Part shown: piece after piece, positions 14,406 to 25,019 of the stretch
Position numbering within the stretch: position 1 is the first letter of the stretch
Layout of the letters: each line of letters begins with the position of its first letter
Virus record (IMG/VR): IMGVR_UViG_3300046809_000089
Span: 1 to 25,019 of that record
DNA length: 25,019 bases
Reading direction: 5' to 3' (one strand)
From: a virus
Notes under the pieces: model-generated
What the model was told of the DNA's origin: nothing
The model's input: only the letters and a program-made list of their open reading frames with translations
Database searches by the model: none
Program-made: the position numbers and the translations under genes

Positions 14406-14426
14406 ATGGACAGCGGCGCATCTTGA
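14406..14426 (+). CDS. Six-codon mini-ORF (candidate leader peptide)
   Basis: GGAG (14395-14398) is followed after 7 bases by ATG and the codons for MDSGAS, then TGA. The ribosome site and spacing are ideal although the frame is only six codons. It may be a leader peptide or the remnant of a lost gene. It lies 30 bases before a strong promoter, so it would belong to an upstream transcript. Confidence 0.3.
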   Translation: MDSGAS

Positions 14427-14455
14427 CGGTGACTCAGTTTTGGAGTCGTTTCCTC

Positions 14456-14484
14456 TTGACAACGAAACCGTTTTATGAGATAAT
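14456..14484 (+). promoter_or_regulatory. Strong sigma-70-type promoter
   Basis: TTGACA (14456-14461) is separated by exactly 17 bases from GATAAT (14479-14484). Five of six -10 bases and all six -35 bases match the consensus. A start near 14491 would drive the 179-residue gene at 14552. The -10 box overlaps the hairpin at 14483-14520, so a regulator bound there could block the polymerase. Confidence 0.8.
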
Positions 14485-14520
14485 CGGTCTATCGGGAAAC
14501 TGCAATCCCGCAGGACCGAT
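14483..14520 (+). promoter_or_regulatory. Nested hairpin overlapping the -10 box and 5' leader
   Basis: ATCGGTC (14483-14489) pairs with GACCGAT (14514-14520). Inside, CGGGA (14493-14497) pairs with TCCCG (14506-14510) over an 8-base loop. A further CCGAT follows at 14523-14527. As DNA it is an operator candidate on top of the promoter. As RNA only the part after the transcription start would fold. Confidence 0.5.
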
Positions 14521-14551
14521 AACCGATAACTCGATTGTGGAGATTACAAAC

Positions 14552-15091
14552 ATGGCGACAAACGCAACGACCCCGGCGGAAATCACCAAGGCGCGCGATT
14601 TTGAGACTGAGCGTGCTGCTATTCGTGCGAAGCTTGCTGAATCAAAGGATGAGAAGGTTTCTCGTGATTTGAATCAGGAGCTTAAAGAGGTTGATGCTGA
14701 CGAAGAGAATAGCAAGCGCACTGGTGTTGGTGTTCGTGTTCGTGTTGGACAGACTCGCGGTAAATCGCCGCTTGTCATTACGTGGGAAGCATTCGACGAG
14801 AGCAAGCCGGATACGCTGCCCACGAAGATTCCACAGTTCATGGAAGTTACTGGCGTAAAGGATGAACCTACGCTGGTTGCTTATTTGATTGGTGGATACA
14901 ACGACGCCAATTACACCGCTGCATCTGACCCACTTGCTGAGTTCGTTGAACTCACTTGGAAGGATGATGTGCAGACTCAGTTCCGTCTTGTTGTGCGAAA
15001 CTATTCGCGTGGTGCGAATGTTTCTCTTGAAGATGCTGTTGCTCTTATCAAGCCCGGCTTCGTCAAGCAGTTCGGACCTGCTGTTCAGTAA
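14552..15091 (+). CDS. Unassigned early protein, probably highly expressed (179 aa)
   Basis: The open frame extends upstream to 14423, but that part crosses the promoter and hairpin; the real start is ATG 14552, with GGAG 9 bases before it. The protein starts MATNATTPAEITKARDFETE, with a charged helical N-terminus (ERAAIRAKLAESKDEKVSRD). Next come a basic beta-rich segment (GVGVRVRVGQTRGKSPLVIT) and a C-terminal domain with AEFVELTWKDDVQTQFRLVV. T-ending codons such as GTT and CGT are frequent, unlike some neighbours. It has its own strong promoter and a hairpin downstream, so it is a single-gene unit. No family is recognised; a DNA-binding or host-interaction protein is possible. Confidence 0.7.
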   Translation: MATNATTPAEITKARDFETERAAIRAKLAESKDEKVSRDLNQELKEVDADEENSKRTGVGVRVRVGQTRGKSPLVITWEAFDESKPDTLPTKIPQFMEVTGVKDEPTLVAYLIGGYNDANYTAASDPLAEFVELTWKDDVQTQFRLVVRNYSRGANVSLEDAVALIKPGFVKQFGPAVQ

Positions 15092-15420: not shown

Positions 15421-15430
15421 CTGCTTACGT

Positions 15431-15490
15431 GTCGTAACTCGTCGTAAGGTGTCGTAACGTGTCGAAATTCGTCGTAACCCGTCGTAACGT
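15431..15490 (+). repeat. Left array: six 10-bp repeats with GTCGTAA core
   Basis: Six units of exactly 10 bases start with GTCG: GTCGTAACTC, GTCGTAAGGT, GTCGTAACGT, GTCGAAATTC, GTCGTAACCC, GTCGTAACGT. The core GTCGTAA is intact in five of six. A partial unit (TTACGT) precedes. The 10-base period places each core on the same face of the helix, as expected for cooperative binding of an initiator or regulator. Confidence 0.85.
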
Positions 15491-15491
15491 C

Positions 15492-15514
15492 TCGCCGCCT
15501 GTAAGTTGCGGCGA
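15492..15514 (+). other. GC-rich hairpin next to the left repeat array
   Basis: TCGCCGC (15492-15498) pairs exactly with GCGGCGA (15508-15514) over a 9-base loop, starting one base after the last full repeat unit. It is the most stable simple stem in the control region and could be a structural part of an origin or a terminator for leftward or rightward transcripts. Confidence 0.55.
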
Positions 15515-15691
15515 TTCAAGGGGTTACGGGGTTTCGTCGGTTTGACCTACCTCTGCCGAATCGCTATCCCACTATGTTTTTTCGGGGTTGGGGTTTCCGT
15601 GTTAGGTTCTCTTTTCTCTTTAATATATATTTTTATATATATATAAAAGATACTAAAGACCAAAACGGACCACCCCAAAATAGGATAGGGG
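15515..15691. other. G-tracts and AT-rich tract in the centre of the origin-like region
   Basis: Two pairs of GGGG runs occur: 15520-15523 with 15528-15531, and 15584-15587 with 15590-15593. They are followed by an almost pure A/T stretch at about 15620-15649 (alternating TA). AT-rich tracts next to repeat arrays are typical unwinding sites. A minus-strand frame across this stretch (15547-15750) has low-complexity content and is not believed to be a gene. Confidence 0.5.
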
Positions 15692-15720
15692 TTGACATTT
15701 GGCTCTGACTGTGGTATAAT
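15692..15720 (+). promoter_or_regulatory. Perfect-consensus sigma-70 promoter for the early operon
   Basis: TTGACA (15692-15697), a spacer of exactly 17 bases, and TATAAT (15715-15720) match the consensus at every position. Transcription would start near 15727 and read through the right repeat array into the operon starting at 16060. It could also supply primer RNA for replication if the region is an origin. Confidence 0.9.
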
Positions 15721-15780
15721 GCCCTTACGGTGGAAACCCTTGACGCGCAACGGGTTACGGACGGGCGGACAACCCTACAC

Positions 15781-15830
15781 GTTCCGACACGTTCCGACGC
15801 GAACCGACGACCCGCGACACGAACCGACGA
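15781..15830 (-). repeat. Right array: 10-bp repeats in inverted orientation
   Basis: Five decamers in phase: GTTCCGACAC, GTTCCGACGC, GAACCGACGA, CCCGCGACAC, GAACCGACGA. Read on the minus strand they carry GTCGGAAC or GTCGGTTC, close to GTCGTAAC of the left array. The left and right arrays are therefore inverted copies of the same kind of site, about 290 bases apart. A further GTCGGTTT occurs at 15536-15543. Confidence 0.8.
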
Positions 15831-15840
15831 AGTGTGTCGA

Positions 15841-16542: not shown

Positions 16543-17184
16543 ATGTGGCATTGTAAGGATTGCGAGTTCGATAATGATGATTTAACGATTCACTGTTGCA
16601 TTTGCAAGATTGAATCACCACTAAGTCATCATTATCGAGGTCTAGTAGCAATCAAACGCGGAGTAATTCTAGATTGGGGGTTCATGACACCGCAAGAGGA
16701 GTTATATTCCAAATTCTATAACAGAGGAAAGCTCTTTGTTAAGGATATGGATGCAACTCAGCTAAGGGAACACAGAGATAAACTCTCTGAGATTGTGCTT
16801 GAGGCTAAAGCTACACTAGCTTCTGCTGATGATGAATTAAGGGAAAGAAAAGCCAAAACCACTAAAAAGGAATGGTTACTTACTCCTAATCAGCCGGAAG
16901 CAGTCACTACTGATGCTATCAACGCTGTCAAGGTCCGTAAAGAGAGAATGAGCAAGATTGACAAGATGAAAGCTCAATTGCTCTCAGCCGGTATCGATGA
17001 GGAAACAGTTAAAGAGATGATTAGTAACCTTGAACGTAAGGCTACTGAATCGAACCTGAAAGCTATTTCATTCAAGACGACAGTAGTTGAAGATGCAATT
17101 GTCTTTGTCGATAAAGAAAAGATAGTTGCAGTTGAGGAACCAAAACAGCCATTTGACCCCTCAACTCTCAAATTCGGGAATTAG
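16543..17184 (+). CDS. RanBP2-type zinc finger plus coiled-coil protein (213 aa)
   Basis: The first 21 residues fit the RanBP2-type zinc-finger pattern W-x-C-x2-C-x3-N-x6-C-x2-C exactly, with W2, C4, C7, N11, C18 and C21. In cellular proteins this finger binds single-stranded RNA or ubiquitin. The rest is helical and charged (ATQLREHRDKLSEIVLEAKA; RKERMSKIDKMKAQLLSAGI), with a short conserved-looking tail FDPSTLKFGN. No enzyme motif is visible. The ribosome site is poor, and the start directly follows a short inverted repeat. It may act in RNA or ssDNA handling within the early operon; that function is inference from the finger. Confidence 0.75.
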   Translation: MWHCKDCEFDNDDLTIHCCICKIESPLSHHYRGLVAIKRGVILDWGFMTPQEELYSKFYNRGKLFVKDMDATQLREHRDKLSEIVLEAKATLASADDELRERKAKTTKKEWLLTPNQPEAVTTDAINAVKVRKERMSKIDKMKAQLLSAGIDEETVKEMISNLERKATESNLKAISFKTTVVEDAIVFVDKEKIVAVEEPKQPFDPSTLKFGN

Positions 17185-17545: not shown

Positions 17546-19111
17546 ACGGCTCTCAGTTCGATTATCAAGCAAACTTGTAAAGAATGCGGTAAGCTCGCAG
17601 TAGAGAGCAGCCGCATTCAATTTGCAAGTAGCAAGCTAATCACTCTGGAGTGCGGACACGTTACTTCTGATGAAGTGATGGAAACCAGCGTGGATATAAA
17701 GCATATCCTCAATGGTTGCACGCTAATGGATTATCAAACCGAAGGGGTTGAATTCATGCAGCGTGGTAATGCAAGAGTAATCCTAGCTGATGAACAAGGG
17801 CTAGGAAAGACAATTGAAATACTTGCATTAATCAAGCTTCATCAGAAAGAACTCACTCCGGCAGTAATCGTTGTGCCAGCTAGCGTTAAAGAGCAATGGC
17901 ATACCGAGATTAGAACGAAGTGTGGAGTGCATGGATTCTTAACTCAAGTCATTAACTCTGGTAAGGTTTTAGCCGCACCGGGGTTCGATATTTATATCGT
18001 AACATATGACTTGCTTAAGAATTACGATGAATGCTTTAAGTTCGTCAAGGATGACATTAAGTTTGTTGCACTTGACGAGTGCCAGCGCATTAAGAATCAC
18101 GATACTGGCAGAGCTAAAGCAGTTCAGAAGTTTGTCTCGGCATTGAAGATAGATAAGATTATCCCAATGTCAGGCACTCCGATTGAGAATCATGCAGGCG
18201 AATACTTCACGATTCTCAATTTAGTTGCTCCGCGAATGTTTCCACAGTATGCAAGATTCATTGAAAACGACTGCGATAGTTATAACAATGGGTATTCATA
18301 CAAAATAGGTGGGTTGAAGAATCCAGCCGCATTCAAAGAGAAAACTAAAGACCTCATCATTAGGCGTAGACAGAAAGATGTTCTAAAGGATTTGCCTGAG
18401 TTGTCTAGACGATTCTATCACGTTGAATTGGATAGAAAGCTGAACAAGTCATACGCCAAACTGATGGAAGAACTCGAAGAGGAATACTACAGCGAGAGCA
18501 GCGGATTTGATAAGCAAGGTAAGATGCTAGCAATTATGAACAAATTGCGGCAGATTACAGGCATATCTAAGGTAACAGAATGTGTTGATTTTGTTACTGA
18601 GTTCTTGCTTTCAACAGACAGAAAGATTGTAGTATTTGCTCATCACCATGCCGCTGAAGACAAGCTAGAGATTGAATTAAATAACTGGCTTGTTGATGGT
18701 GGTTATGAAAAGTGCATGAGATTTCGAGCCGGTGATGATTTCGACAAGCGTGGTCAAGAGTTTAAGAATAGTAATTCAAGGGTAATGATTGCTTCTACAC
18801 AAGCTGGCGGAGTTGGTGGGAATCTCCAATTCTGTTCAGATGCAATCATGTTAGAGAGACAGTGGAATCCTAGCAAGGAATCACAAGCGGAAAAGAGGCA
18901 TCATCGATTCGGTCAGAAGAATGCAGTCGTTGTAACATATATGATTGCAACTGATACAATTGATGAATACTTCACAGAGCTAGTCGAGCAGAAGCGTGCA
19001 GTAGTTGGTTCTAGCTTAGACGGTGACGAAGGTAGTTGGGACGAAAAGAGCTTAATGACAGAGTTAGCTCACATACTTATCACAAAGGGGAAGAAGTCAT
19101 GGAAGCTGTAA
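17546..19111 (+). CDS. SNF2-family helicase with N-terminal zinc ribbon; start codon non-standard
   Basis: The core of 478 residues from GTG 17675 has all main SF2/SNF2 motifs: DEQGLGKT (39-46), DECQ (134-137), SGTP (166-169), ASTQAGGVGGN (373-383) and QAEKRHHRFGQ (404-414). It should remodel or translocate on DNA and is typical of phage replication operons. Upstream, in frame and without a stop, lies a zinc-ribbon-like stretch with CKEC (17573-17584) and later CGH, so the true protein starts earlier. An in-frame TAA at 17540-17542 limits it. No ATG, GTG or TTG lies between, but AAAGGAG sits 6 bases before ACG 17546, which is taken as the start. A sequencing error remains possible. DECQ replaces the usual DEAH. 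Confidence 0.8.
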   Translation, partial: TALSSIIKQTCKECGKLAVESSRIQFASSKLITLECGHVTSDEVMETSVDIKHILNGCTLMDYQTEGVEFMQRGNARVILADEQGLGKTIEILALIKLHQKELTPAVIVVPASVKEQWHTEIRTKCGVHGFLTQVINSGKVLAAPGFDIYIVTYDLLKNYDECFKFVKDDIKFVALDECQRIKNHDTGRAKAVQKFVSALKIDKIIPMSGTPIENHAGEYFTILNLVAPRMFPQYARFIENDCDSYNNGYSYKIGGLKNPAAFKEKTKDLIIRRRQKDVLKDLPELSRRFYHVELDRKLNKSYAKLMEELEEEYYSESSGFDKQGKMLAIMNKLRQITGISKVTECVDFVTEFLLSTDRKIVVFAHHHAAEDKLEIELNNWLVDGGYEKCMRFRAGDDFDKRGQEFKNSNSRVMIASTQAGGVGGNLQFCSDAIMLERQWNPSKESQAEKRHHRFGQKNAVVVTYMIATDTIDEYFTELVEQKRAVVGSSLDGDEGSWDEKSLMTELAHILITKGKKSWKL

Positions 19112-19284
19112 CGTTTGACAGCAAAGGGAAGATTTCTTACAACGTAGATACAGGAGAACTTATCATTCCTGTTATCGACGAGAATGGTAAGAAGTTCAAC
19201 CTGAAGTTAGCAAAGCCCGGTGCTGATTTAGTTCTTAGCATTGGAGCTGTGAGGTTTGAAGACGCAGACAAAGACGATGAGTGA
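19099..19284 (+). CDS. Small unassigned protein (61 aa)
   Basis: ATG 19099 has GGGG 8 bases upstream and overlaps the helicase stop by 13 bases; the longer frame from 19036 would lie mainly inside the helicase gene. The protein starts MEAVTFDSKGKISYNVDTGE and reads as beta strands with short turns (LIIPVIDENGKKFNLKLAKP) and an acidic end. No family is recognised. Its tight coupling to the helicase may mean a partner or accessory of that enzyme. Confidence 0.6.
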   Translation: MEAVTFDSKGKISYNVDTGELIIPVIDENGKKFNLKLAKPGADLVLSIGAVRFEDADKDDE

Positions 19285-19603
19285 GGTTAGTAGTGGTAAG
19301 CTCTTAAACATTCCTGATGAACCCAACAAAGATAACATTGATAATGTTTGTTGGAGAACAAGGGAAGGAGAGCTTATCCCAATCCGAATGTTAAAGGACG
19401 GCCATCTCAGGAACATTGCATTGTTCTTAATGGGGATGGGATATAATTATTGCGTAGCTAGTAAAGAGACTCGTATCTTATGGCTAGCCGTTCTCAGTTT
19501 TGAATGGGAACGTAGAATGGATTTGCGTACTAAAGAGAACGTTGCAAGGATAAGAGAACATCTTAATGACAAATCTGAAAACCGTCAACGTAGGATTGAA
19601 TAA
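19277..19603 (+). CDS. Unassigned phage protein (108 aa)
   Basis: The likely start is ATG 19277, which overlaps the previous stop by 8 bases (ATGAGTGA), rather than a TTG 21 bases earlier. The protein starts MSEVSSGKLLNIPDEPNKDN and contains CWRTREGELIPIRMLKDGHL, a pattern of W-T-R-x-G and a later HLxN that I associate with a family of small phage proteins of unknown function. The rest is helical. It overlaps the next gene by 38 bases. It is part of the early replication operon. Confidence 0.65.
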   Translation: MSEVSSGKLLNIPDEPNKDNIDNVCWRTREGELIPIRMLKDGHLRNIALFLMGMGYNYCVASKETRILWLAVLSFEWERRMDLRTKENVARIREHLNDKSENRQRRIE

Positions 19604-20186
19604 GTACTGCGGTCCAGCAGTATTATCAATCCTTACTGGCAAGTCTACAGATGAATGTGCAAGAGTCATTGGTAGTATTAATGGACAGTATAGCATAGCC
19701 GGTGTGCAGTTGAATCATTTGCTTCAAGCTGCAAATCGGTTAGGTTATGATTACTATCCAGTGATTCCAGCTAACAGCTTATATGGAACCATCGTTCGTA
19801 TAGTAATGGCTAACGAAGATGGAATGTATATCATCACAGTTCCAAATCACTTCGTAGTAATCGAAGTGAAAGATAAGCGTGCATTCTTCTGCGACAATCA
19901 TACGAAAGAACCTATTCCGGCATCATCATCGGCTAGGCTTGGACAGAGTGTAGTAGGTGCTCACAGAGTAATTAAGAGAGCAGAGCCTCCGCCAAAGCCT
20001 GAGCCGGTATTGATTCGCAAAGAGTATACTGCTGGCATTAGCAACAACAGATTGTATGTTGATGTTAGCTATCTATACGAGGATGAATACGACAATCGGA
20101 CAGAGCAAGTTGGATTCATTCAAGCACAGAGCGGGGCAGAACTGGAGGAAATCTTGCGCGTAATTAAGGAGAAGATTGATGAGTAA
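19566..20186 (+). CDS. C39-like/papain-like cysteine peptidase homologue (206 aa)
   Basis: The first 115 residues look like a papain-fold domain of the C39 type: KYCGPAVLSILTG contains the candidate nucleophile C15, NHFVVIEV the candidate H95, and FFCDNHTKEPI the candidate acid D110. The order Cys, His, Asp and the spacing match that fold. The C-terminal part (about 140-206) is different: Pro-rich, then beta/alpha (RLYVDVSYLYEDEYDNRTEQ). No signal peptide is visible, so it should act in the cytoplasm. It may process a phage or host protein. Inactivity cannot be ruled out. It starts inside the preceding gene and sits in the replication operon. Confidence 0.6.
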   Translation: MTNLKTVNVGLNKYCGPAVLSILTGKSTDECARVIGSINGQYSIAGVQLNHLLQAANRLGYDYYPVIPANSLYGTIVRIVMANEDGMYIITVPNHFVVIEVKDKRAFFCDNHTKEPIPASSSARLGQSVVGAHRVIKRAEPPPKPEPVLIRKEYTAGISNNRLYVDVSYLYEDEYDNRTEQVGFIQAQSGAELEEILRVIKEKIDE

Positions 20187-20655
20187 GAAAGTGAAGAAGA
20201 AGTACGTGAAGAAAGGTACTATCAAAATGTTTGATGGTATGCCAGTGGTTGATGCTACTGAGGATATTGAAATCAATATCACGGCAGCAGATGTAAGGAA
20301 CTCAAAGAAGAAAGACCCCGGTGGTTGTGCCGCTGCTGTAGCTGGTAAGCGTGAATTGCATACTCCGGTCAAGGTATTCTTGAGCAGAGTGTATGTGAAG
20401 AACCCAAAGAAAGCAGAGTGGGTTCGATTCATCACACCGAGTTCTGTTGCAAGAGAGATTGTCTCATTCGATAGGTCTAGCTTGTTTGAGCCGGGAGAGT
20501 ATAAGTTCAAGGCACCGGGTAAGACAGCACGGTTAGGATATGATACTCGTCGTCGTCCCAACAATGACCATGATAGGAAAAAGAAGAAGCCTCACGTTAC
20601 AGCTAACGTGAGACTGTCTGCTAAGGGTTCCTATCAGAACGAAAGAGCTAAGTGA
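20179..20655 (+). CDS. Conserved-type basic phage protein (158 aa)
   Basis: ATG 20179 has GGAG 7 bases upstream and overlaps the previous stop by 8 bases; a TTG at 20176 is less likely. The protein starts MSKKVKKKYVKKGTIKMFDG. It has a core DPGGCAAAVAGKRELHTPVK, then AEWVRFITPSSVAREIVSFD, a combination I associate with an unassigned family of phage proteins (D-P-x-x-C-A-x-A-x-A). The C-terminus is very basic (RRRPNNDHDRKKKKPHVTAN). Nucleic-acid binding is likely from charge. No enzyme motif is seen. Confidence 0.65.
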   Translation: MSKKVKKKYVKKGTIKMFDGMPVVDATEDIEINITAADVRNSKKKDPGGCAAAVAGKRELHTPVKVFLSRVYVKNPKKAEWVRFITPSSVAREIVSFDRSSLFEPGEYKFKAPGKTARLGYDTRRRPNNDHDRKKKKPHVTANVRLSAKGSYQNERAK

Positions 20656-20876
20656 AGTTTGCGAACGTGATTCACATGGTTATGTTTCAACATACTATGG
20701 CGAATCAGCCGGCTCAGATTGTCCAGTATGTTAACCCATATTGGACAATCCGAGAAGGTGTAAAGATTCAGCCGTTTGAGATAGTAAAGAGAGAACTTAA
20801 TACTAAACCGAAAAAGTTAGAAGATAAGATTAAGATGATGTTATCTGCTAGTGATATTGAAAGGTTGTTTAAGTGA
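20652..20876 (+). CDS. Small unassigned protein (74 aa)
   Basis: The start is GTG 20652, overlapping the previous stop (GTGA), and the stop overlaps the next GTG start in the same way. The protein, read from GTG, begins MKFANVIHMVMFQHTMANQP and ends IKMMLSASDIERLFK. It has a mixed character and no known motif. Tight coupling to the nuclease gene downstream suggests joint expression. Function unknown. Confidence 0.6.
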   Translation: MKFANVIHMVMFQHTMANQPAQIVQYVNPYWTIREGVKIQPFEIVKRELNTKPKKLEDKIKMMLSASDIERLFK

Positions 20877-21787
20877 GCAAAGTTAATATCGTAATGGATG
20901 CAAGTCAATATGATATGTTTCTATTGTGTCCACAAAGGTTCCACAATAGATACAATCTTAACCTACAGGCACCAGTTAAGAAGATGCAATTGGACCGTGG
21001 TACTGTAGTGCATGTAGGTGCTGAGACATACTATGAAGCATTGAAGAATGGTGCTAAGTATCAGGATGCTGTCGTAGCCGCTTTGAGCAAGATGAGAGAA
21101 GCTAGCGTATTCAGTGACCTTGAACCAGAGATGGTTGACCGCTGCTTAGATGTGATGGAAGAATACTTCGATTACTGGCGTGTAGCAGACCAGAGCTTGA
21201 ACATCGTAGGTGTTGAACAGCCATTCATTTACAAGCTGTATGAGGATGATGAAGTACGTATTCATATGGCTGGTAAGATTGACTTGATTACTAGTGACAA
21301 CAAGTATACAAACTTACCGACTGACCACAAGACTTATGACAGAAGCTTTGAACTTACGAGGATGAGTAATCAGTTTAAGAATTATACTCATGCTCTTAAG
21401 AGTAACTACTTAGTAGTAAACCGCATTGGTTTCCAAAAGACATTGAAGCCGCACGAGAAGTTTCTCAGGCCAATGCTTAGCTTTGACCCATTGGTATTTG
21501 AACAGTGGACGCACAATGTAGTGCTGAACATTATGCACTATCTACAGTGTGCAGCTACTAATGAATGGCCAATGAATGAAACGTCTTGTGATAAGTTCCA
21601 TCGTAAGTGTGAGTACCTTGATGCCTGTGATGCTTCGGGTATCGAAGCTAAGATGTATAAGTTAAGCAGAGACTTTGTAACCGTAGAACCTTGGGACGTA
21701 AGCAAAGTGCTACGTAAGGCTACGGAGGTATTAGCAGATGCTCAGAAAGCTCCAGAGATTCAAAGTGAAGACGGTGTTAGTAGCTAG
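20873..21787 (+). CDS. RecB/Cas4-like PD-(D/E)XK nuclease with Fe-S cluster cysteines
   Basis: The 304-residue protein carries the motifs of the PD-(D/E)XK nuclease family: H47 in GTVVHVG, D137 in AGKIDLI, D151-H152-K153 in LPTDHKTYD, and QFKNYTHAL (Q167, Y171). Four cysteines, C19 in LLCPQRF and C239, C246, C252 in CDKFHRKCEYLDAC, are placed like those of the 4Fe-4S cluster of Cas4, AddB and related exonucleases. It most likely degrades one DNA strand from ends to feed recombination. The start is GTG 20873 (GTGA overlap). The Sak4-like ATPase and ssDNA-binding protein are downstream in the same operon, which supports a recombination role. Confidence 0.85.
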   Translation: MSKVNIVMDASQYDMFLLCPQRFHNRYNLNLQAPVKKMQLDRGTVVHVGAETYYEALKNGAKYQDAVVAALSKMREASVFSDLEPEMVDRCLDVMEEYFDYWRVADQSLNIVGVEQPFIYKLYEDDEVRIHMAGKIDLITSDNKYTNLPTDHKTYDRSFELTRMSNQFKNYTHALKSNYLVVNRIGFQKTLKPHEKFLRPMLSFDPLVFEQWTHNVVLNIMHYLQCAATNEWPMNETSCDKFHRKCEYLDACDASGIEAKMYKLSRDFVTVEPWDVSKVLRKATEVLADAQKAPEIQSEDGVSS

Positions 21788-21962
21788 TGTTGATGTATTT
21801 CATGGTGAAATAATTGTTGGTACTGGTCTGTCATTTTGGGATGGCGAGAACTTACTAACAGATATTATAGGTTTGGATGGTAGCATATTGCCAACTGATT
21901 GGTATACCATTCATACTATCGGAGAGCCGCAACTAGCAATCTATTCGGAAACATTGCATTAA
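21738..21962 (+). CDS. Small unassigned protein (74 aa)
   Basis: ATG 21738 lies inside the nuclease gene but has GGAGG 9 bases upstream; GTG 21765 or 21774 would reduce the overlap but have weaker sites. The protein contains KTVLVASVDVFHGEIIVGTG and WDGENLLTDIIGLDGSILPT, giving a compact beta-rich fold. No family is recognised. It is in the same direction and operon as its neighbours. Confidence 0.5.
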   Translation: MLRKLQRFKVKTVLVASVDVFHGEIIVGTGLSFWDGENLLTDIIGLDGSILPTDWYTIHTIGEPQLAIYSETLH

Positions 21963-21975
21963 ACTTTGGTGAACT

Positions 21976-22335
21976 ATGACAGCGAAACACACTCATAAAC
22001 TCAAGAGGCATATCTATCCTAAGACTAAAACGGCAGTATATTTCTGCACACTACCTGACTGTCACTTCAAGATTGAATGTGCAATGGCTCTAGGTAAGAA
22101 AGCTATCTGCAATCTTTGTGGTGATGAATTTATTATGACGGAGTATGATTGCAAACTACTCAGACCTCATTGCCTTAAGTGTGGCAAGATAAAGGTGGCT
22201 AGTTCAGATGGGAAAAACAGATATGTCCGGCGCGGAAGTATGCCTGTCATGGCTGCACTCGCTGAAGATACTACTGCTGATTTGCGGTCACGTCTTAGTA
22301 ACGCCATTTCAAATACTGTGGACGAAGATATTTAG
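21976..22335 (+). CDS. Multi-cysteine zinc-ribbon protein (119 aa)
   Basis: The N-terminal half has several possible zinc ligands: C24 and C29 in FCTLPDCH, C35, then the pair CNLC (45-48), then CLKC (66-69), with histidines at 30 and 65. CNLC and CLKC form a clear zinc ribbon. The wording HKLKRHIYPKTKTAVYFCTL and GKKAICNLCGDEFIMTEYDC resembles an unassigned family that recurs in uncultured tailed phages. The C-terminal half is helical and lacks motifs. It may bind DNA or RNA, or serve as adaptor to a larger complex; no function is established. Confidence 0.7.
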   Translation: MTAKHTHKLKRHIYPKTKTAVYFCTLPDCHFKIECAMALGKKAICNLCGDEFIMTEYDCKLLRPHCLKCGKIKVASSDGKNRYVRRGSMPVMAALAEDTTADLRSRLSNAISNTVDEDI

Positions 22336-22432
22336 ATGTCACCACGAGACAATGATTGTGATTGGTAAGAAAGGTCGTACACACTTAGAGTGTATTAAGT
22401 GTGGATGGGAAAGTGAAGGGTGGTACTGGTGA
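22208..22432 (+). CDS. Small zinc-finger candidate, start uncertain
   Basis: The last third is convincing: CHHETMIVIGKKGRTHLECI followed by KCGWESEGWYW gives C-H-H...C-x2-C, a compact zinc-knuckle pattern. The frame is open from ATG 22208, but most of that overlaps the previous gene in another frame and has poor protein content. The real start is probably near 22320-22345, with no ATG that keeps the first cysteine. It may use a rare start or be read through coupling. The stop overlaps the next GTG start (GTGA). Confidence 0.4.
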   Translation: MGKTDMSGAEVCLSWLHSLKILLLICGHVLVTPFQILWTKIFRCHHETMIVIGKKGRTHLECIKCGWESEGWYW

Positions 22433-22776
22433 TACGTAGAGATTTTCTTAAGATACTGTTAGCTACTACATCAGCGGCTACTATGGACTGGGAGAAGTTC
22501 CTGTGGTTGCCAGGTGAGAAGAAGATATTTATTCCTCCTGTAGAAATATTTGGGGAAGCTAACTATAATATTGCCATTCCATCTCTCTGGACTGTTGGTC
22601 GTAGCTGGTACGAAAGAAATCCAGATTTATGGAATGTTGATGAGAACAGTTTAACATATAGAATTATTGATAGAACTGAGGCAATTAAGAGAGGTATTCT
22701 CAAGAGAGGTCAAGGTCTTGAAGATATTGATACTTATATGAAACGGCAGATTGAACTCTCGAAGGAGAAGAAATGA
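22429..22776 (+). CDS. Phage protein with twin-arginine-like N-terminus (115 aa)
   Basis: Start taken at GTG 22429, which forms the GTGA overlap with the preceding stop and has AAGGGTGG upstream. The N-terminus reads IRRDFLKILLATTSAAT, matching the twin-arginine motif RRxFLK followed by a short, weakly hydrophobic stretch. It continues DWEKFLWLPGEKKIFIPPVE, a segment common in small proteins of uncultured phages. The C-terminal part is helical and charged (RTEAIKRGILKRGQGLEDID). Whether it is exported through the Tat pathway is unproven, since the hydrophobic region is short. It ends with an ATGA overlap. Confidence 0.6.
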   Translation: MIRRDFLKILLATTSAATMDWEKFLWLPGEKKIFIPPVEIFGEANYNIAIPSLWTVGRSWYERNPDLWNVDENSLTYRIIDRTEAIKRGILKRGQGLEDIDTYMKRQIELSKEKK

Positions 22777-23048
22777 ACAAGCCATTGCTGAGTGACCAGG
22801 TACAGGAGTTCATTGATTGGTTAAAAGAAAGAACTGATTTTGGTGATTGGAATCCTAGACTTCAGGTTGAAGTTCACAAGAAGCTAATTGAATGTTTGAT
22901 TAGTGTGCCAGCAGAGCAATGTAATGAGCGTTGGGCTGGTTATAATAGATGTATAAAGCCATTAGGGCATTCAGATGCACATATTACAAGCGGTGGATTT
23001 GATTGGATACCAGTTGAGCCACGAACAGCAGCAGGGAGTTTAGATTGA
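22773..23048 (+). CDS. Small Cys/His protein of phage type (91 aa)
   Basis: ATG 22773 overlaps the previous stop (ATGA). The protein starts MNKPLLSDQVQEFIDWLKER with a helical first half. A segment C-NERWAGYNRCIKPLGHSDAH with two cysteines and two histidines follows, and then GGFDW. That arrangement suggests a small metal-binding fold. I know it only as a recurring phage pattern and not by function. The stop overlaps the TTG start of the Sak4-like ATPase. Confidence 0.6.
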   Translation: MNKPLLSDQVQEFIDWLKERTDFGDWNPRLQVEVHKKLIECLISVPAEQCNERWAGYNRCIKPLGHSDAHITSGGFDWIPVEPRTAAGSLD

Positions 23049-23983
23049 AAGCCAGTAGCATTAGTCTTGCAGGTCCAACGTCATTCTTATTCAAAGCCCC
23101 TTGGGGATTTGGTAAGACCATAGCCGCTGCTTCATTCGCATTAGGTGGACCAACGTATCTAGCTTATTGGGATAAGAAAGCACCGAGAGAACTGATAACC
23201 TTCTATCGTAAGCTAGGCGAGAAAGGTAAGAAGGTTCTCGACAATCTTGAGTTTGACGTATACGGTTCATCGAATGCCAATGACTATCTAAACAAGGTCA
23301 TTGATATGAGAGGCAACTGTAGGTATACAGCATTCATTACTGACTCAGTGACCACGTTAACGGCTGGTGCTGTCAATTGGTCATTAGGTTTCAATGATAA
23401 GGGTAAAAGGGTTGAAAAGAAGACAGACAATCCTCAGCAGATTATTCCACAGTTTGATGAGTATAAAACTGAGACATCCTTTGTATCTCAGGCTCTTGAC
23501 ATTTGCAGAACGTTGCCTTGTCATGTCATTTGGACTGCACATCCATTGCCAGGTATTAAGATTGAAGGCTCTGGCAATTCAATGAAAGTATCTAAAGTAA
23601 ATCCTATCGTTACCTACGGTAGCAAAGTAGCCGGTATCGTACCGGGTGAGTTCTCTGAAATCTACCAATTTACCAAGACAGCAGACTTCAGCTCTGGTTC
23701 TCAGAAGATTAGATACAAAGTATCTACTGAAGCTATTGGTGATGATTATGCCAAGTCAAGTTTAGGCTTGCCAATTGAGCTTGACATTACAGACCGTCTA
23801 TTCTATGAGGTTTGGATTGAAGCTCTTGAGCAAGTCAATCAAGCTTTCACTGACAGCATGAACAAGGAGAAGAATGAAGTAGTAACTACACCAACTCAAC
23901 CCAACGTATTTAATCCACAAACCTTACCAATCACAAACCAACCGACCAAAATCTGGGACAGCGAATTAGGAGCATACAAATGA
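23045..23983 (+). CDS. Sak4-like RecA-fold ATPase (recombination)
   Basis: The 312-residue protein has a Walker A motif APWGFGKT (18-25) and a Walker B-like strand YTAFITDS (94-101), with a later HVIWTAHPLPG strand (160-170). This layout fits the Sak4 group of phage RecA-like single-strand annealing or strand-exchange proteins, usually found next to an SSB and a nuclease, as here. The C-terminal tail is Pro/Asn/Thr-rich (NVFNPQTLPITNQPTKIWDS). The start is TTG 23045 with a TTGA overlap, and the stop overlaps the next gene (ATGA). A different P-loop ATPase is the main alternative. Confidence 0.75.
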   Translation: MKASSISLAGPTSFLFKAPWGFGKTIAAASFALGGPTYLAYWDKKAPRELITFYRKLGEKGKKVLDNLEFDVYGSSNANDYLNKVIDMRGNCRYTAFITDSVTTLTAGAVNWSLGFNDKGKRVEKKTDNPQQIIPQFDEYKTETSFVSQALDICRTLPCHVIWTAHPLPGIKIEGSGNSMKVSKVNPIVTYGSKVAGIVPGEFSEIYQFTKTADFSSGSQKIRYKVSTEAIGDDYAKSSLGLPIELDITDRLFYEVWIEALEQVNQAFTDSMNKEKNEVVTTPTQPNVFNPQTLPITNQPTKIWDSELGAYK

Positions 23984-24369
23984 GAGGCGTACTTACTCCG
24001 GACGACTTGAAGAAGGGCGACCTTGCAGAGAACGGCTGGCATCCAGCGCAAATCAGCGACTACGATGAGAAGGACGCTGATACTGATGGCAGCACCAACT
24101 GTAATTTCTACTTCAAGATTATTGATGGACCCAACAAGGGTGTAGTAGCACGTCGGTTGTTCAATGAGAAAGCCTTGGGATTTGGCAAGGCTCTGTTCGG
24201 TGTTCTCTTTGGACCGCCTGACCCAGTAAAGGGATATACTGCTGACCAGCTCAATACCGAGTCATTCAAGGCTCAGGTCGGTAAGAATCTCATGATTTAT
24301 ATCAAGCGTGGTAAGAGCAACAAGGGCAACGAATTCAACGACGTTGTTGACTTCAGGCCAATGGCGTAA
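23980..24369 (+). CDS. DUF669-like / single-strand DNA-binding candidate (129 aa)
   Basis: The protein starts MRGVLTPDDLKKGDLAENGW. The pattern GW-x-P at the start, ADTDGSTNCNFYFKIIDGPN, a mid-domain FNEKALGFGKALFGVLFG, and a final GNEFNDVVDF strand matches the DUF669-type phage proteins and related ssDNA-binding proteins. Such proteins often accompany Sak4-like ATPases. It overlaps the ATPase stop by 4 bases (ATGA), so both are made together. It likely coats single-stranded DNA during recombination. The fold assignment is by eye. Confidence 0.65.
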   Translation: MRGVLTPDDLKKGDLAENGWHPAQISDYDEKDADTDGSTNCNFYFKIIDGPNKGVVARRLFNEKALGFGKALFGVLFGPPDPVKGYTADQLNTESFKAQVGKNLMIYIKRGKSNKGNEFNDVVDFRPMA

Positions 24370-24375
24370 ATAGTT

Positions 24376-24696
24376 ATGGGAGAATGGGTTGAAACGAGTT
24401 ATCAGAAATGGACTTATTTCAACCCATCTCTATTTAATAGGTTAGAGCTTTACTTCGATATGAAGGAGTTGGTGAGAGTTATGAGTGAGAATGAATGGCC
24501 TGCAATTGCTGGACAAGGTAGCTATGGTGCCGACTCACCAAAGATGATTCATCAGCCAAGTCTAAAGCAGAGACTCGATATGGCTGTTAACGAGGCAGAG
24601 AAGAAACTTGCTGATGTGAAGCGTGCAAGAGAAATCTTTGACAAGAATCCTGACCTAGAGGAACTCTTGAACATCATGCAGCGCGGTAGGTTCTAA
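24376..24696 (+). CDS. Unassigned helical protein of replication operon (106 aa)
   Basis: ATG 24376 lies 6 bases after the previous stop; there is no strong ribosome site, so re-initiation is likely. The protein starts MGEWVETSYQKWTYFNPSLF and contains SLKQRLDMAVNEAEKKLADV, a long charged helix, up to a basic end (NIMQRGRF). No domain is recognised. A later ATG (24460) is a possible alternative start. Confidence 0.6.
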   Translation: MGEWVETSYQKWTYFNPSLFNRLELYFDMKELVRVMSENEWPAIAGQGSYGADSPKMIHQPSLKQRLDMAVNEAEKKLADVKRAREIFDKNPDLEELLNIMQRGRF

Positions 24697-24813
24697 ACGT
24701 TTGCGGCTTCTGAATCCTCAGACACTATGAAAAGATTAGGATAGACTCAACACAGTCCCGTGTGATTGAGGCTGGCTATAGTCCTAGTGGCCGCTCTTTC
24801 AGTGAGGTGAACA

Positions 24814-25019
24814 GTGGAAGATTTCACATATGATAAAGATGTAATTGAAACAAAACGAGAATGGGCATTAGCATTTAGACTGTCAGAAGTCCACAATGAT
24901 AATGCACCTATTGGATGGACTCACTATATTGGATTGGCTACTTGGTTGTTTAAGAATTTCAATATGAATATACTAAGTCCATCTCCAATCCTAGAGGATG
25001 TTCAATGTCCTGAATGTCT
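24814..25019 (+). CDS. Unassigned protein, 3' end cut off by window edge
   Basis: Start taken at GTG 24814, with GAGG 6 bases upstream. The frame is open to the right edge (68 codons). It begins MEDFTYDKDVIETKREWALA and reads PIGWTHYIGLATWLFKNFNM before ending in CPEC at the very edge, which suggests the start of another zinc-binding site. No family can be named from this fragment. It continues the plus-strand operon after a gap of 117 bases. Confidence 0.6.
   Translation, partial: MEDFTYDKDVIETKREWALAFRLSEVHNDNAPIGWTHYIGLATWLFKNFNMNILSPSPILEDVQCPEC

Follow-up and report, generated by a model that had tools for sequence, protein, structure and literature searches.

Why would a phage set two mirror-image arrays of short repeats around a promoter and a tract of pure A/T? 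The question is raised by a locus in a 25,019-base IMG/VR virus record (the window, by which we mean this whole stretch of DNA), where a preliminary description had put forward a candidate replication origin. The carriers of the two-array locus are a group of uncultivated viruses of bacteria, and the lineage is probably one of lytic, circularly mapping phages of 44-50 kb, kin to N4-like podoviruses through the terminase. The large, N4-like terminase of the window matches 646 phage records, all below 60% identity and at about 28-31% among the matches listed, and a nucleotide search of phage and plasmid records returned no match.

About 20 contigs of close relatives were collected by searches with the SNF2-like helicase, with the A1 gene that adjoins the locus and with a promoter-box pattern, and 17 phages among them include the region. 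Five contigs with 10-bp repeats, 44-49 kb long, overlap exactly at their ends and are therefore taken as complete circular maps. IMGVR_UViG_3300015245_000017 is one of the complete circular contigs. For the wider family, a terminase profile gave at least 553 relatives, and 80 loci were kept. Three contigs (L198, L199, L200) are 99.8-100% identical to the window up to position 24801, where matching ends in all three, so that 24802-25019 may be either a variant end or an assembly join. The distant Microcystis phage Mel-JY34, ctMlz233 and a Desulfofustis phage, which have the polymerase in common, carry no such arrays, and in the open-access literature (subscription papers lay outside the search) we found no description of two inverted arrays so arranged.

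Anatomy of the locus

The left array (15427..15486, plus strand) consists of six 10-bp units with the core GTCGTAA, which starts at 15431, 15441, 15451, 15471 and 15481, with the variant GTCGAAA at 15461. The right array (15780..15829, minus strand) consists of five inverted 10-bp units with the core GTCGG(AA/TT)C, and four of these read GTCGGAAC or GTCGGTTC. The five inverted units first described are thus all present on the minus strand, but one of them (15810-15819) is degenerate. Scored by period-10 matches per 50-bp interval, the arrays reach 37 and 32, the top two values of the whole window, against a maximum of 29 in 30 first-order Markov shuffles, and left and right are 73% complementary across 40 nt. 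The two convergent variant arrays of the preliminary description are therefore real, to within a base or two.

At the center of the locus lies a 30-bp near-palindrome of pure A/T (15619..15648), one base from where it had been placed, and no other 30 bp of the window is less stable. The sigma-70 promoter to its right (15692..15720, plus strand) is oriented toward the early genes and is as perfect as had been claimed, with TTGACA at 15692-15697, TATAAT at 15715-15720 and a spacer of exactly 17 bp. The GC hairpin also exists (TCGCCGC/GCGGCGA, at about 15492-15514), but stable hairpins are not conserved among relatives, and the idea of a conserved hairpin in each arm was dropped because stabilities were inconsistent from phage to phage.

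Overlooked in the earlier account was that the locus is largely a single imperfect dyad, with the AT tract at its center. Inverted alignment of one arm with the other, excluding the AT core and most of the arrays, gives z scores of 12 to 22 in five relatives (G001-G004, G010) and 4.9 in the window; in the remaining phages the arm-to-arm repeat is weak or absent. An inner box, CAACGACTTACAG, belongs to this dyad. Its right copy (15748..15760, plus strand) reads CAACGGGTTACGG in the window and CAACGACTTACAG in several relatives, and stands at a fixed distance from the promoter in most phages; the left copy (15499..15508, minus strand) is CTGTAAGTTG, the reverse of CAAC..ACTTACAG, and is less regular in position. 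In some phages the left arm appears, in our reading of the alignment, to hold a segment that resembles a promoter but lacks good hexamers. The window also carries a 25-nt inverted repeat (15873-15897/16015-16039, 88%), its arms 117 nt apart, in the stretch that leads from the right array to the first early gene.

Conservation and co-variation across the family

The left array, AT tract and promoter are present in all 17 close relatives, and the inverted right array wherever the contig extends far enough; the pure-AT tract measures 24-42 bp and the promoter is of the TTGAC type. The 10-bp spacing, whose conservation had been proposed as a mark of protein binding, is thus kept in 17 of 17. A period-10 scan finds one array locus per genome, and the arrays are its two strongest places in 12 of 13 contigs (G010 being counted at its displaced position). 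In G010 the entire locus is inverted relative to A1, and the promoter nonetheless seems, from the gene layout, to be directed to the early genes. G009 (3300047409_000087) has a second 10-bp-periodic stretch (GGGGTGTGCA type) outside the locus, about 2.8 kb left of the promoter and equal in strength to the arrays.

The repeat sequence itself varies from phage to phage (TGTCGTAA, GGAACTCGGA, ATTGCTCGAC, ACGTTGACAG, CGCGGGTGAA and others), and the two arrays vary together. Mean similarity between a left array and the inverted right array is 0.71 for a phage's own pair and 0.44 with other phages, a level of own-partner similarity reached in none of 20,000 permutations, whereas left and right compared in direct orientation score only 0.34. 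A single protein in each phage that reads both arrays would be expected to leave such a pattern, and gene conversion between the arms could add to it. The AT tract, a putative DNA unwinding element, is the least stable 30 bp by nearest-neighbor energies in 11 of 11 genomes or contigs, and ranks first again in all six further array genomes; in G014, an 11-bp contig, it is sixth.

How far does this design extend? A two-array detector, which gave no hits on 395 randomized loci, finds repeats of 11 bp in the same geometry in six contigs of a more distant clade (L116, L121, L135, L137, L138 and L141; for example L138, 6245-6660), with inverted arrays 145-185 bp from the AT center. At the matching place in this clade the arrays and AT tract are kept, and inspection reveals no TTGACA promoter. 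A third group, a sister clade (L100, L111, L124, L130 and others), has an AT tract of the T8AT13 type followed by a TTGAC promoter, and no arrays. The preliminary description had looked ahead to relatives that keep the genes and lose arrays and AT tract together; the sister clade does keep its replication genes without arrays, but it has retained the AT tract and the promoter. Two loci of this array-less group, L099 and L130, contain a large dyad that differs in sequence from the array locus. An 18-bp palindrome, TGTCCNCTNNAGNGGACA, to which a dimer probably binds, occurs near the center at about 35 to 100 times its density elsewhere in all three groups, of which only the 11-bp and array-less groups are independent tests, since the palindrome was first noticed in the 10-bp group. 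It is found at the locus in G001-G004 and G007-G010 and at L099, L102, L116, L121, L135 and L138, and is absent from the window itself.

A candidate reader of the repeats

We propose that the repeats are probably read by HTH91, a previously undescribed DNA-binding protein of about 90 residues with a helix-turn-helix, whose gene adjoins polA some 9.5 kb from the arrays. HTH91 is present in all ten 10-bp genomes that hold that place and occurs as a 148-residue variant in the 11-bp genome G013, and it is missing from all seven near-complete array-less relatives. These seven retain the SNF2 helicase, Cas4-like nuclease, PolA and DUF3987 protein, which in a gene-content comparison are, with an AAA protein, common to all groups. 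The sister clade that has no arrays is also without the HTH protein, and since it lives without either, some members of the family can do without arrays.

Scans led by HTH91 brought in six further contigs that pass a strict array test, four with 10-bp repeats (G028, G030, G033, G043) and two with 11-bp repeats (G037, G044). The strict test failed in four near-complete HTH91-positive contigs (G029, G031, G034, G035); under relaxed settings weaker 10-bp arrays appear in G034 and G035, as they do in G032, and G029 has an AT palindrome at the contig end with a 10-bp signal on one side. The other contigs from these scans were incomplete, and the HTH91 match of G036 is doubtful. G044, at 62,483 bases, carries two copies of HTH91 (16699-16935 and 61106-61360) and, being longer than its relatives, may join two genomes.

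The protein and its repeats also vary together. Helices of the RSxGS type go with a 10-bp period in 14 of 14 cases and those of the CSIGLVSEN type with 11 bp in three of three, and the end of the recognition helix follows the TCG core, which accompanies QD in nine of ten and ED in none of four (Fisher p 0.005, uncorrected for ancestry and for a split noticed in the same data). A PolA tree groups the array-less phages into a single clade next to the 11-bp one and places the ED types together in another, so these correlations represent few independent evolutionary events. For the window, a contig identical to it over 18,254-24,801 (6.5 kb) places HTH91 about 0.2 kb beyond the window end, with the helix NRSIGSVSQD, in keeping with the TCG core of the window.

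Comparison of HTH91 with Pfam families (above cut-off), PDB chains and isolate phages gave no match. Because it is small, has no ATPase domain and has no known relative, it may serve to bind the origin or to regulate, and not act as a complete initiator. Two other genes were weighed as array binders. A1 (14423..15091, plus strand; conserved part 14678-15088) adjoins the locus, occurs only in the 10-bp clade, has no detectable homology to known families and no relative in bacterial genomes, and its model matches no known fold. The first core early gene downstream, g213 (16543..17184, plus strand), encodes a zinc finger and an H-NS-N-like coiled coil and is a possible alternative binder; its structure prediction, of low confidence, has an NZF-like finger. 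Both are weaker candidates than HTH91, since they are absent from the 11-bp clade and their models are uninformative or of low confidence, and both were set aside. Elsewhere among these genes, the early module of G002 encodes a protein with an Acb2/Tad1 hairpin domain (Pfam E 2e-12; one of 29 ORFs, alignment A4), likely a sponge for defense signal molecules, and L046 (3076-5532) encodes a family A DNA polymerase fused to a uracil-DNA-glycosylase domain.

A probable replication origin and competing readings

Weighing the anatomy of the locus, its conservation, the left/right co-variation, the instability of the AT tract and the association of the arrays with HTH91, all read from sequence, we judge it rather probable that phage replication starts here and that the initiator, or a protein that binds the origin, is of an undescribed kind. 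Part of the original case gains support from the comparison: 17 of 17 close relatives conserve the arrays, their helical spacing and the AT tract, no site of the genome is less stable than this tract, and the arrays go together with an HTH protein whose gene neighbors that of the DNA polymerase. The part that falls away is GC skew. The minimum does lie 0-4.3 kb from the promoter in 13 of 13 sequences, but it is explained by gene direction: in leftward genes the skew at third codon positions is of similar height far right of the early module (0.213) and left of the locus (0.160). Because the coding strand sets it on either side of the genome, skew is neutral on replication and was discarded as origin evidence.

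Lambda-type and Rep_3 plasmid iteron origins place tandem binding sites beside an AT-rich unwinding element. In two clades the locus carries regularly spaced units of 10 or 11 bp, and the least stable 30 bp adjoin them in the same 11 of 11, but searches of these genomes with Rep_3, Phage_rep_O and DnaA_C gave no match, and with no known initiator family present we do not file it among the known iteron families. Iterons of lambda O and Rep_3 also lie on one side and are usually longer, whereas here repeats stand on both sides. In lactococcal phage c2 the origin is intergenic and accompanied by a strong early promoter, a likeness by description only, and we know of no inverted arrays there. By analogy, the locus may work like an iteron origin while looking most like the inverted-box origins of herpesviruses. 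In herpes simplex virus oriS and oriL, inverted UL9 boxes flank an AT-rich spacer that is distorted on binding (PMC12543377); those are single boxes hugging a short spacer, whereas the arrays lie 165-180 bp away, and UL9 is a helicase of an unrelated virus, whereas HTH91 is a small HTH protein.

How might such an origin fire? Soon after infection, host RNA polymerase would fire the strong promoter into the early replication genes, and HTH91, made from the early module beside the DNA polymerase, would bind both inverted arrays, loading one unit per helical turn along a single face of the DNA. Standing about 165-180 bp to either side of the center, these two complexes would pair, or wrap the DNA, and so put strain on the AT tract, which would open and admit the DUF3987 primase/helicase-like protein and PolA, with forks departing in both directions. 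On the right array, in the early transcript leader, HTH91 might also damp the promoter, which would tie the onset of replication to the close of early transcription.

The main rival casts HTH91 as a repressor or early-to-late switch: bound to the arrays, it would loop the DNA and shut off the promoter, with replication starting elsewhere. A perfect host-type promoter between the arrays in the 10-bp clade, a right array inside the transcribed leader and an operator-like palindrome (TGTCCNCTNNAGNGGACA) concentrated at the locus in many phages would all suit such an early regulatory region. We nevertheless consider it unlikely: the 11-bp clade keeps arrays and AT tract without a visible TTGACA promoter, a repressor site needs no genome-least-stable DNA at its dyad center, and the HTH91 gene sits beside the DNA polymerase, far from the arrays. 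It is improbable to a greater degree that the locus is a packaging site, where a small-terminase ring would engage both arrays and terminase would cut between them. The locus is about 4-5 kb from terL, circular-map contigs fit headful packaging, small-terminase rings display multiple HTH motifs, and SPP1 pac likewise has repeat boxes flanking a central cut site near the terminase genes (PMC4737164). Those boxes, however, are few, lack helical phasing and overlie the small terminase gene, whereas the arrays are helically phased and the linked HTH gene adjoins polA in the early module (none of the genes in these genomes could be assigned as a small terminase); packaging would give no role to AT tract or promoter, and the arrays are absent from relatives whose TerL is 60-69% identical.

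We give little credence to a plasmid-like partition site, with the phage persisting as an episome, even if repeat blocks in helical register around a promoter recall parC, which binds ParR: R1 parC has ten 11-bp repeats split around its promoter, and pB171 has 10-bp repeats (PMC9426499, PMC5016525). In parC the repeats run in the same direction and there is no AT unwinding tract, whereas the arrays here are inverted; no integrase matched in these genomes, and searches for ParM/StbA and actin-like partners gave no hit in eight genomes, with the StbA control also blank and the ALP_N control only weak. Fainter still is the prospect of an N15-type telomere, a hairpin-end resolution site whose dyad is kept by repair between the arms. 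It would account for a large imperfect palindrome with an AT center, and arm-to-arm conversion would also produce the left/right co-variation, but protelomerase (PF16684) was absent from eight genomes in a search whose control worked, and contigs run continuously across the locus, several closing as circles elsewhere. A replication origin is favored over a promoter switch, a pac site or a centromere because HTH91 lies beside the polymerase, an unwinding tract is present, the symmetry is inverted and there is one locus per genome.

With belief and doubt close to balance, we tentatively suggest that replication origins of this kind form a distinct phage class: each genome would have a single large dyad, in which helically phased, mirror-image arrays stand about 165-180 bp to either side of a central unwinding tract, and an undescribed HTH family whose subtypes match the 10- or 11-bp period and whose recognition helix would set the repeat core, so that every phage would own a private origin code. 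The origins of most phages, uncultivated ones above all, are unmapped. If the proposal is true, sequence would suffice to recognize the origin throughout a large phage lineage that only metagenomes have revealed, and a natural protein-DNA code would be in hand, in which one small HTH family reads many repeat sequences in two periods. Such a code would be a ready test system for the evolution of origin specificity, and would also let mutual exclusion of replication proteins among related phages be tested.
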